64,000 nt of DNA, from assembly GCF_000165465.1 (NCBI RefSeq), contig NC_017455.1, positions 1,798,001-1,862,000 on the forward strand. The letters run 5' to 3'. The notes below the pieces were generated by a model. The model searched no databases and was not told the DNA's origin. It was given only the letters and a program-made list of their open reading frames with translations. The DNA is from Halanaerobium praevalens DSM 2228 (GTDB taxonomy: Bacteria > Bacillota > Halanaerobiia > Halanaerobiales > Halanaerobiaceae). Of this stretch, positions 24,750 through 28,581 are shown piece by piece. Both the position numbers and the translations under genes were made by a program. Positions within the stretch are counted from its first letter, which is position 1. Every line of letters begins with the position of its first letter.

Positions 24750-24875
24750 TTTTACCACCTCTTATCTTTAACATTCTGCAAAAGATAGTCCAAAACCTTC
24801 TTCTTATCTTTAAATTTTAATATTTTTAAAGGATTTAAATACTTTTAAGAGAAAATATATGTGGGAGGTGATAGT

Positions 24876-25598
24876 TTGAATAATATTTTTAAAGATCAAA
24901 GATTAAACTATAAAGACTTTTTAATAATTATAGCTAGCTGGTATTTTATTAGAATTAGTAGTTATTACATAATTGAAAAAGATTTTGTCAATTTAATTTA
25001 TATTAATCAAATTTTGAGTTTTACAATTAGTATTTTATCCCACATTGTTTTTTTATTAATAATTTATAGTTATTTTAATTTGCTTTATGACCTTAAATTT
25101 TCTGATTTAGGTTTTAAATTAAATAAAGAACAAATCAGACTAAAACTCTTATCAATTATTTTTATAATTTTAACTAGTGGAGTTATTTTATTTAATTTTA
25201 ATTACTCAAATGCAACCAAAAGCAGCTTTTTTCCAATTTATTTAACTAAGAATTTTTTAAAAATTATTTACAGTAATTTACCTTTAATAGTAATTATTTT
25301 TTTAACCCTTATTTTCACAGCCAGTGTAGAACAATTTTTAATTAATAAAATAACATTTTCTCTCTTTGATCTTTATTTACCTTCTTTTATAGCAATTATT
25401 TTAAATTCTTTATTTGCTTCAATTTTACTTTTAGAATTCGAGCCAGCCTTTATTTTAATTAATTTTTTTGCTTTACTAATTAGCAATTATCTATATCTTA
25501 TTAGTGATTATACTTTATTTAATTCAATTATATTTTATAGTTATTTTTTAACTATTTATATTGTTTTTATTTACGGCTTTCAATTTATCATTATTTAA
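24876..25598 (+). CDS. Degenerate CPBP-like intramembrane protein (probably non-catalytic)
   Basis: The only convincing plus-strand gene. About 240 very hydrophobic residues form seven or eight predicted membrane spans, and codons are extremely AT-rich. The arrangement resembles CPBP/Abi (type II CAAX) proteases: a FSDLGFKLNK linker, then TASVEQFLINKITF where active enzymes have EExxxR. LFASILLLEF stands at the place of the FxxxH motif, and the histidine is absent. It is thus likely a dead or adapted family member, or an unrelated membrane protein. The start TTG at 24876 follows GGGAGGTGATAG; the in-frame GTG at 24861 overlaps that site. No clear promoter was seen. Confidence 0.7.
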   Translation: MNNIFKDQRLNYKDFLIIIASWYFIRISSYYIIEKDFVNLIYINQILSFTISILSHIVFLLIIYSYFNLLYDLKFSDLGFKLNKEQIRLKLLSIIFIILTSGVILFNFNYSNATKSSFFPIYLTKNFLKIIYSNLPLIVIIFLTLIFTASVEQFLINKITFSLFDLYLPSFIAIILNSLFASILLLEFEPAFILINFFALLISNYLYLISDYTLFNSIIFYSYFLTIYIVFIYGFQFIII

Positions 25599-25688: not shown

Positions 25689-25850
25689 TTATTTCCATAG
25701 TTTAAATAGACTATTTATCTGATCAAATTTAGCGGCACTTTTTTGTGCATTTTGATTATGAAATAAATCTCCACTACATTTTTCACAGTAAAGTTCACCA
25801 GACCAATTTTTGCTTCCACAAAATTTACATTCTACATTTTTATTTTTCAT
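25689..25850 (-). CDS. Small zinc-ribbon protein
   Basis: A 53-residue protein from ATG 25848-25850, chosen because GGAGGGC is just upstream; the frame is open for seven earlier codons that overlap that site. It has one four-cysteine ribbon, CKFCGSKNWSGELYCEKCSG (two CxxC pairs), then a polar tail ending FDQINSLFKLWK. No family assigned. It has its own promoter and terminator, so it is a one-gene unit downstream of the AmmeMemoRadiSam genes. Confidence 0.75.
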   Translation of the reverse strand: MKNKNVECKFCGSKNWSGELYCEKCSGDLFHNQNAQKSAAKFDQINSLFKLWK

Positions 25851-25999: not shown

Positions 26000-26989
26000 T
26001 TAAAATTCACCCCAAAGTTCAGTTCTACAAATTGGACATTTATTAGCTTTTAATAAATTTTCGAATTTAATTTTATTTCTATCTATTAACTTTTCTCCAC
26101 AGTTGTTACAAAAAGTTGAAGCTGTTTTTTTAAAATTAAGATTACCAAGATAAACATGGTCTAAATATCTTTTTGCTAATTGATAGGCTTTTTTCATCTT
26201 GTTTTCAGCAGTCGGAGCTTTTTTTAAGTTATAAGCAGGATAATACCTACTTAAATGTAAAGGGATTTGCTTATTAACTTCTGCTAACCAGCTAAATAGT
26301 GCTTCTAATTCAGCTAAATTATCATTTAGATCTGTTATAACTAAAGTAGTAATTTCCAAATGAATTTTTTTAACCAATAATTTAATAGTCTTTTTTACAG
26401 ATTCTAAATTAGCATTACACTGTTCTTGATAAAAATCATTATTAAAAGCCTTTAGATCAATATTAGCAGCATCTAAATAAGGAACTAGCTGTTCTAAAGG
26501 CTTTGGCTCAATTAAACCATTACTAACCATTATATTTTTTAAACCCTTTGCAGTAGCTAATTGAGCTGTTTCAAGCATAAACTCATAAAAAACTGTTGGC
26601 TCAGAATAAGTATAAGCTAAAAGATCTATATTTCTATTTATTGCTATCTCAATAATTTCTTCTGCATTAAAATTTTTAAGTTGTGGTTTTTCTTGACTAA
26701 TCTGCCAATTTTGACAAAATATACAACTCATATTACAACCCCAACTACCAAAAGAAAGAACTTTTTTTTGGGGATAAAAATGATATAAAGGCTTTTTCTC
26801 AACTGGATCAATACTTAAAGCAGAAACTTTTTGATAGTTGAGTGAGTATAATTTAGAATTGATATTTTTACGAACTTGACAAAGGCCAGTTTTATGATTA
26901 TCAATTTTACAATTATGAGGACATAAATTACATTTTATTAAATTGTTTTCTTCTTTTTGATAAAACTTAGCTTCTTTTTTTTTATTCAT
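26000..26989 (-). CDS. AmmeMemoRadiSam-system radical SAM protein
   Basis: Radical S-adenosylmethionine enzyme of unknown reaction, usually next to AMMECR1 and MEMO genes. The 329 residues hold an N-terminal cysteine cluster (C20, C23, C27, C37). The CxxxCxxC radical SAM site is C85/C89/C92 (GCNMSCIFC), with the GE/GYN-type barrel following. A C-terminal zinc ribbon has two CxxC pairs (about 294-297 and 318-321). The family resembles pyruvate-formate-lyase activating enzymes (PflA-like), but no glycyl-radical partner is nearby. The start overlaps the AMMECR1 gene by eight bases. Confidence 0.9.
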   Translation of the reverse strand: MNKKKEAKFYQKEENNLIKCNLCPHNCKIDNHKTGLCQVRKNINSKLYSLNYQKVSALSIDPVEKKPLYHFYPQKKVLSFGSWGCNMSCIFCQNWQISQEKPQLKNFNAEEIIEIAINRNIDLLAYTYSEPTVFYEFMLETAQLATAKGLKNIMVSNGLIEPKPLEQLVPYLDAANIDLKAFNNDFYQEQCNANLESVKKTIKLLVKKIHLEITTLVITDLNDNLAELEALFSWLAEVNKQIPLHLSRYYPAYNLKKAPTAENKMKKAYQLAKRYLDHVYLGNLNFKKTASTFCNNCGEKLIDRNKIKFENLLKANKCPICRTELWGEF

Positions 26990-27509
26990 TTTCTTTAAAC
27001 CTACTTACAGTAAATCGATAAATATCCACCTCAATACTTCCTTTTAAGCCAGCTTTTCTTTTAGCAATATCTAATTGTTTTTCTACAGTATCTATACCTT
27101 CTAAATTAGGAAGCAAAAGACCTGTTTGATGGCCACCTTTAACTAAAATTCCATATTTTTGTGGATCTAATTGTTCTTGATCATTAACTAACTCTGGTTC
27201 AGATAAAATATCAACTGAAATGGAGATTTCAGTTAATTCTTCTTTTCTTAATTCTGGAAATCGAGGATCATTTTCAGCTGCTGTCATTGCATTACTTATA
27301 ATTTCATAAGCTGCATTTTTTTGAACTGGTCTAAAAGTCCCCATACATCCTCTTAAATTGCCATCTTTTTTTAAAGTGACAAAGACTCCTGCTTCTTTTT
27401 TTAAAATTTCTGGTAATTGTTTTTCATTAATTTCAAGTTCTTCTCCAGAAATAATATATTTTTCTACAGCTTTTCTTGCTAAATATAAAATAACTTTTTT
27501 TTCATTCAT
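26982..27509 (-). CDS. AMMECR1-domain protein
   Basis: The 175-residue protein contains the AMMECR1 fold with GVFVTLKKDGNLRGCMGTFR, including the conserved LRGCxG, and ENDPRFPEL. The family spans bacteria, archaea and humans (mutated in a human syndrome), but its biochemical role is unknown. It is the middle gene of three. It overlaps the radical SAM gene by eight bases and follows the MEMO gene by 21 bases, indicating a tightly coupled operon. Confidence 0.92.
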   Translation of the reverse strand: MNEKKVILYLARKAVEKYIISGEELEINEKQLPEILKKEAGVFVTLKKDGNLRGCMGTFRPVQKNAAYEIISNAMTAAENDPRFPELRKEELTEISISVDILSEPELVNDQEQLDPQKYGILVKGGHQTGLLLPNLEGIDTVEKQLDIAKRKAGLKGSIEVDIYRFTVSRFKENE

Positions 27510-27530
27510 TTTGATCTCTCCTTAAATCTT

Positions 27531-28358
27531 TTATTCTGTTCTTATAAAAATTGTTCCATAACCAACCCCAAAAGGAGCTTGATAAGAGTTAAGTTTTAGT
27601 TTTATATTAGTCTCAGATAAAGCACCTAACATAGTTATTATAGGTCTCAAACCACACTCACCGGCTTTTTCTACTAAATCCGAATCAAAGTTCAAAATTG
27701 ATTCAAAATCTTTTTCTTTAAAATATTTAAGTAACTTTTCATCAAAAATATGAGCATCTGAATTATAGCCAGCTGGTGCTCCCTTTTCTAATCGATGTGA
27801 TAAATCACCACTTGCTATAACTGCTATATTATAATTAAGTTCTTGAGCTGTTTGGGCAATTTCCTGTCCTATTTTATATAAATTTTGATAAGAAATAAAG
27901 CCAATTGAAATTGGAATTATTTCTTTATTTAATCCAGCTTTTTTTAAATAATGTAAAGGAACCATAATCCCATGATCAAGTTCTTGTTTAATATCATAGT
28001 TTTTTAAGTCTTTTTTTCTTAAAGCTTGTAATTTTAAAGATTTTTCTTTAGCATTTTGAATTAATTTTTCAGAAAAATTAATATCTGATTTTTCTCTAAA
28101 TTCAAGTTGAGGAAAGCCAAATTCTCTGAAATCTCCTTTTAACTCTTCCTGAATAATAATCGAGGCAGCAGATTTAAATAATGGACCATGTGGGGTAATA
28201 AAAACAACTAAATCAATCTCTTGCTTTAAATTAGCTAACTGATTACTTGTCTTTTTAAATCCCTGAACAGTCTTTTTAGCTTTTTCGAGTTCTGGACCAC
28301 CGATATCTTCGATTAAAATTGGGGGATGTGGTAATAAAGAAGCAGATACAACTCCCAT
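27531..28358 (-). CDS. MEMO/LigB-fold protein (AmmeMemoRadiSam system)
   Basis: The protein belongs to the class III extradiol dioxygenase-like (MEMO/YgiD/LigB) superfamily. Markers are LPHPPILI with the first His, FITPHGP, DHGIMVPLHYL, IASGDLSHRL and GYGTIFIR, so metal-binding histidines are present. Whether it has dioxygenase activity is unknown; the human MEMO1 homologue binds metal. The ATG at 28356-28358 follows GGAGGTG at correct distance, whereas the frame is open three codons further. It is the first gene of the trio. Confidence 0.9.
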   Translation of the reverse strand: MGVVSASLLPHPPILIEDIGGPELEKAKKTVQGFKKTSNQLANLKQEIDLVVFITPHGPLFKSAASIIIQEELKGDFREFGFPQLEFREKSDINFSEKLIQNAKEKSLKLQALRKKDLKNYDIKQELDHGIMVPLHYLKKAGLNKEIIPISIGFISYQNLYKIGQEIAQTAQELNYNIAVIASGDLSHRLEKGAPAGYNSDAHIFDEKLLKYFKEKDFESILNFDSDLVEKAGECGLRPIITMLGALSETNIKLKLNSYQAPFGVGYGTIFIRTE

Positions 28359-28581
28359 ATATTTCACCTCCAGCTTAATTTGAGCTTTTAAAATAAATAA
28401 ATTTATTTTTAAAAAATGAATATTTCAAAAATAATTCTCCATTATTTATATTATACAACAAATTAACTGATAAAAAAACACCTAAGCACAGAAGACATTT
28501 TTTTATTTTATTGATAGCGAAAATTATAAACTTAAAATATTATTTATATAAACCATTAAACATAATTTTTGGCTATTAACA
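28359..28581 (-). other. Intergenic region upstream of the AmmeMemoRadiSam operon
   Basis: About 220 AT-rich bases. A consensus TATAAT (28450-28455, minus strand) marks a probable promoter, but no good -35 stands 17 bases upstream. I see no conserved leader or operator. Confidence 0.4.

Follow-up and report, generated by a model that had tools for sequence, protein, structure and literature searches.

AMMECR1 and MEMO1 are conserved as far as humans and are linked to disease. In prokaryotes their relatives accompany a radical SAM enzyme (rSAM) in the set known as AmmeMemoRadiSam; to our knowledge, MEMO1 has no rSAM partner in humans. The main comparative study (Burroughs et al. 2019, J Biol Chem) is said to have connected, by comparative genomics, the Memo domain with the modification of bases and isoprenoids, and may already describe secreted forms. 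In the literature searched, 'AmmeMemoRadiSam' appears in passing mentions only, no paper joins AMMECR1, MEMO1 and radical SAM, and no use of the term for an extracytoplasmic radical SAM enzyme was found. A previous sequence-only reading of the locus described here was right in stating that two of its members have human relatives and that the reaction of the system is unknown. The iron ligands of human MEMO1, H49, H81 and C244, correspond to H12, H61 and E242 of LigB, and the primary molecular function of MEMO1 was still given as unknown in 2024 (PMC11081632).

The window, that is, the whole stretch of 64,000 nucleotides of Halanaerobium praevalens DSM 2228 that was analysed, contains on its minus strand the genes rpsI, LigB/MEMO-type, AMMECR1, rSAM and zinc ribbon, in this order (Table 1), and in the window ORFs the start of the rSAM gene overlaps the AMMECR1 gene by 8 bases. 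All three core proteins exceed the NCBIfam cut-offs, the rSAM with 304.8 bits against TIGR04337 (cut-off 220), AMMECR1 with 139.8 bits against TIGR04335 (cut-off 99) and protein B with 42.4 bits against TIGR04336 (cut-off 26), which bears out the earlier identification of the three-gene system. Beyond the zinc ribbon lies an opposite-strand membrane-protein ORF, followed by cdaA-ybbR-glmM, and the arrangement truA-rplM-rpsI-memo-AMMECR1-rSAM-...-cdaA or glmM is held across much of the phylum. We identify the locus as an AmmeMemoRadiSam operon of the cytosolic form and an ordinary member of the family; the three-gene set and its kept order are far beyond chance expectation. The hydrophobic product of the ORF placed between the zinc ribbon and cdaA has no match in Pfam or NCBIfam. 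In one related genome the whole operon, zinc ribbon included, is present in two equal-scoring copies separated by about 98 kb (G017:C1:157523-158500 and 255707-256684; L106 and L098), the result of either duplication or an assembly artefact.

Table 1. Features of the window and groups of loci in relatives
Feature	Position or loci	Strand	Length
LigB/MEMO-type protein (AmmeMemoRadiSam protein B)	27531..28358	-	275 aa ORF
AMMECR1 (AmmeMemoRadiSam protein A)	26982..27509	-	175 aa ORF
Radical SAM enzyme (rSAM)	26000..26989	-	329 aa ORF
Zinc-ribbon protein	25689..25850 (alternative start 25871)	-	53-residue ORF
Hydrophobic ORF	24861-25598	+	245 aa
Loci of the proposed exported branch	L346-L358, L149, L159, L160, L175, L185, L197, L205, L109, L003-L015		
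rSAM with isoprenoid/flavin-type genes	L146, L147, L153, L183, L171, L142, L158, L182, L201		

Alignment of 163 family members showed that the SAM-cluster cysteines C85, C89 and C92 of the rSAM are invariant, as are the N-terminal C20, C23, C27 and C37, and that each of the C-terminal C294, C297, C318 and C321 is absent from at most one member. Given this conservation, the two extra cysteine sites pointed out beforehand are real, but they are features of the whole family and not peculiar to the window protein. Residues D178xK180 and H245 are conserved as well. The nearest solved fold to the structure model of the protein (pLDDT 95.6) is that of the pyruvate formate-lyase activating enzyme (PFL-AE; 3c8f, E 7e-14, TM 0.80 by target), with TYW1 and RlmN among the folds ranked after it, while a search of the PDB with the sequence gave no match. 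The model thus predicts a PFL-AE-like radical SAM fold, as in the glycyl-radical activases. The protein, starting MNKKKEAKFYQKEE, carries no export signal, and since a search of its genome gave a single rSAM over the cut-off, without signal, no exported copy was found there.

Protein B, the least secure of the three assignments, scores 139 bits against LigB (PF02900) and 47 against Memo (PF01875) in Pfam. These scores, together with the fold of a homologue (Z 24-30 for class III extradiol dioxygenases), argue against a classical Memo, and the protein is best assigned to the LigB type, with a predicted class III extradiol dioxygenase fold. The homologue is the fused LigB-AMMECR1 protein of Thermovorax, whose structure model (pLDDT 90.6) matched TK2203 with Z 29.8 and an aminophenol dioxygenase with Z 27.9, its AMMECR1 half matching PH0010 with Z 21.3. 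Numbered in the 278-aa frame starting at 28367, residues H14, H60, H132, H191, E237 and C238 are invariant or nearly so in the phylum, with the metal-site residues H14, H60 and E237 kept in 53 to 55 of 55 sequences; judged by its residues, the two-His-one-Glu metal site of class III extradiol dioxygenases appears to be present. In alignments, E237, which is invariant here but absent from classical Memo, falls on the Glu of a LigB-type dioxygenase, and C238 falls on the Cys of Memo. The protein thus seems to retain both the carboxylate of the dioxygenases and the cysteine of Memo, in hosts that are presumed anaerobic from their clade. In AMMECR1, the motifs LRGC55xGT and DPRF are invariant, and the Gly-Cys pair is so throughout the phylum alignment.

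The system had been described as tightly coupled and as occurring in both bacteria and archaea. The latter holds, the rSAM-bearing genomes coming from many phyla including archaea. As to the coupling, co-occurrence is strong: of 50 rSAM-bearing genomes, 46 encode AMMECR1 and 47 a Memo/LigB protein, which is Memo (PF01875) in 45 of them and strongly matches LigB in the other two. However, only 21 of 74 diverse loci place the rSAM together with Memo or AMMECR1, a count made with LigB-type models that may miss some classical Memo genes, and AMMECR1 and LigB/Memo can be kept without the rSAM. Four genomes of one family keep the LigB-AMMECR1 fusion intact without any rSAM over the cut-off. In two of them rSAM fragments lie next to the fusion (L101:7702-8075 in G057, and G053:C4:336340-336501), which we read as decay of the rSAM alone. 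In one archaeal phylum, where 40 genomes were picked to contrast divergent with typical AMMECR1, 19 have a divergent AMMECR1 without rSAM or Memo and the 21 others have all three genes. The persistence of AMMECR1 and of LigB-AMMECR1 without rSAM points to rSAM-independent roles of these parts. Moreover, fusion of LigB/Memo to AMMECR1 is common, being seen in many genomes, and the rSAM is mostly non-adjacent and sometimes lost, so that Memo/LigB and AMMECR1 form the tighter pair.

Some other genes were observed beside rSAMs of the family. A gene of 438-492 aa (MGAAGRDFHNFN...), with a weak CobW/MeaB-type nucleotide-binding match in Pfam, is placed directly after or near the rSAM at L078, L081, L091, L093, L094, L096, L156 and L179. 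Small ferredoxin-like genes directly upstream of the rSAM at L168:1120-1302 and L212:1425-1643 are possible electron donors.

Relatives outside the window include a set of rSAMs with predicted export. A convincing signal anchor or twin-arginine signal precedes the first Cys in 33 of 166 distinct rSAMs (for example TRRDFLKKSALVALGG, MDRREFLKTLAILPF and MERRDFLKITISGCAL), export having been read from hydropathy and motifs rather than with a trained predictor, in hosts that are mostly metagenome-assembled genomes; the N-terminal hydrophobic stretches of L176, L203 and L214 were attributed to wrong starts and left out of this count. In a tree built from 117 of these rSAMs the exported label changes 5 times, against a mean of 28.9 when shuffled, and the exported rSAMs are therefore close to one branch, outside which the window copy lies. 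The catalytic residues are retained in 32 or 33 of the 33 predicted-exported proteins. Of the 50 genomes, 14 with readable genes show a signal peptide or lipobox on Memo-AMMECR1; by predicted signals, 13 of these also have an exported rSAM, but only 4 of the 32 others do (Fisher p 3e-7, kinship ignored and genomes with cut-off gene starts excluded). An Atribacterota genome (G073) encodes signal peptide, Memo and rSAM in a single chain of 650 aa (L358:4919-6871, minus strand). Of the exported loci, 21 of 31 also encode a membrane protein that contains a spermidine-synthase-like domain and, in most copies, about 10-14 predicted membrane helices; none of the 116 cytosolic loci does (p 3e-18, kinship ignored). 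Both p-values overstate independence because the loci share ancestry. In several other exported loci there are DsbD-like membrane proteins, some with FMN-binding and 4Fe-4S domains.

We consider it rather probable that these loci (Table 1) represent an extracytoplasmic branch, composed of a signal-anchored or Tat-exported, catalytically complete rSAM, a Memo-AMMECR1 fusion that is secreted or a lipoprotein, and the spermidine-synthase-like membrane protein, sometimes with a DsbD/FMN/4Fe-4S protein. A working rSAM outside the cytoplasm, if true, would be surprising, and raises the question of supply, as both SAM and low-potential electrons would have to reach such a system across the membrane. 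The spermidine-synthase-like domain is predicted to bind a SAM-type ligand, and the DsbD/FMN/4Fe-4S membrane protein could bring electrons outward.

Taking into account that: (i) LigB/Memo and AMMECR1 are frequently fused, which suggests that they function as one enzyme; (ii) in the exported branch export signals are predicted on rSAM as well as on Memo-AMMECR1, which implies a shared compartment and a substrate not confined to the cytosol, and (iii) the hosts are presumed anaerobes, which argues for chemistry free of O2, we tentatively propose, with somewhat less than even confidence, that the rSAM and Memo/LigB-AMMECR1 act jointly, in two steps, on one substrate in the same compartment. In the model, the PFL-AE-like rSAM would generate a radical on the shared substrate. 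LigB-AMMECR1 would then finish the conversion by bond cleavage or rearrangement without O2, using a first site formed by the two-His-one-Glu metal centre with the adjacent invariant Cys, and a second one around the invariant Cys of AMMECR1. A substrate not confined to the cytosol in the exported branch makes a protein, a peptide or an envelope molecule likelier than tRNA, and among envelope molecules a quinone or an isoprenoid would be candidates. The common substrate probably does not have to be a nucleic acid of the cytosol. The two branches, exported and cytosolic, might differ in substrate, and our confidence in any specific substrate does not rise above low.

The neighbourhood of some rSAMs invites a more definite proposal, namely that the target is an isoprenoid or quinone-linked envelope molecule, whose polyprenyl chain or quinone would be functionalised by the rSAM and then processed by LigB-AMMECR1. 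Some or all of polyprenyl synthetase, ApbE, NusG_II and heptaprenyl-diphosphate-synthase component I recur beside the rSAM in nine loci (Table 1), from Deferribacterales, Thermotogae, Cloacimonadota, Spirochaetota and others. The presence of isoprenoid and flavin-type genes is in line with an envelope target, and an exported branch suits a substrate accessible from the membrane. However, such neighbours are absent from the window locus and from most loci, and they may form an independent flavin or electron-transfer set, so that we hold this proposal to be rather unlikely.

Modification of a nucleotide base, for instance in tRNA, is unlikely in our view. It would agree with the link of the Memo domain to base modification reportedly made by comparative genomics in 2019, and with the rank of TYW1 and RlmN next to PFL-AE among the folds resembling the rSAM model. 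Yet the radical SAM fold is common to many chemistries, and the exported branch, including the secreted Memo-rSAM chain, lies out of the reach of tRNA.

Another alternative, which we judge very doubtful, takes the MEMO/LigB protein as mainly concerned with iron and copper handling and the rSAM as its accessory. Human MEMO1 binds iron and copper and alters iron homeostasis (PMC11081632; see also PMC9477392). However, the window protein has the residues of a full dioxygenase-type site including both His acid/base positions, and metal storage leaves unexplained the co-inheritance with a radical enzyme.

The PFL-AE-like fold with its conserved D178xK180 and H245, and the invariant Gly-Cys of AMMECR1, could also suggest that the rSAM is a glycyl-radical activase and that AMMECR1 is activated at its RGCxG motif. 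This is highly improbable, as AMMECR1 is retained in genomes without rSAM and is present in aerobic eukaryotes, where a glycyl radical would not survive.

The small zinc-ribbon gene does follow the rSAM in the window, as had been noticed before. Its inner ATG at 25850 sits after a AAGGAGGG ribosome-binding site, which makes 53 residues the likely length of the protein. The gene is present in 30 of 61 related genomes, often away from the operon and in many of them among unrelated neighbours. Within the genus it occurs in 8 of 12 genomes, the window's included, directly downstream of the rSAM in 7 of the 8 carriers and on a separate contig in the other (G001), where adjacency is not seen. Searches of the PDB gave chance-level matches only, and the 53-aa ORF after the Thermovorax rSAM (L137), considered as a counterpart, is unrelated and lacks the CxxC pair. 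The earlier suggestion that the zinc-ribbon protein is a substrate or partner of the rSAM is hardly credible, since, despite its place directly after the rSAM in much of the genus and in four further genera of the order, the gene is missing from half of the relatives in which the operon is retained, sits in unrelated places in others and was found beside no rSAM outside this order. Occurrence and neighbourhood likewise reject it as a core part; being optional and often elsewhere, it is a neighbour outside the conserved set and a poor substrate candidate.

Joint action of rSAM and Memo/LigB-AMMECR1 on one substrate is thus the reading we retain. By putting both proteins together outside the cytoplasm, the exported relatives speak against tRNA or a cytosol-only metabolite as common substrate and point to envelope or protein targets, and the puzzle becomes testable.

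Compared with known systems, the window locus agrees with the AmmeMemoRadiSam family in gene order, invariant residues and curated scores; its protein B is LigB-type, as in other Halanaerobiales and in Clostridia, whereas most other phyla sampled have classical Memo. PFL-AE is the closest solved fold to the rSAM, yet identity is about 14%, the rSAM has two additional Cys4 sites at its N- and C-terminus, and no glycyl-radical enzyme was found as operon partner among the identified neighbouring genes. The class III extradiol dioxygenases (LigB, DesB, aminophenol 1,6-dioxygenase) share the fold, with Z 24-28 for the Thermovorax homologue, as well as the two-His-one-Glu residues and the catalytic His of the window protein. 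The latter differs from them in the extra invariant Cys beside the Glu, in its linkage to AMMECR1 and rSAM and in hosts presumed anaerobic. Human MEMO1 (7kq8) belongs to the same superfamily, with Z 18.9 against the Thermovorax fusion model, and has its metal-site Cys at the aligned place; in MEMO1, however, this Cys replaces the Glu ligand, whereas the window protein carries both residues side by side.
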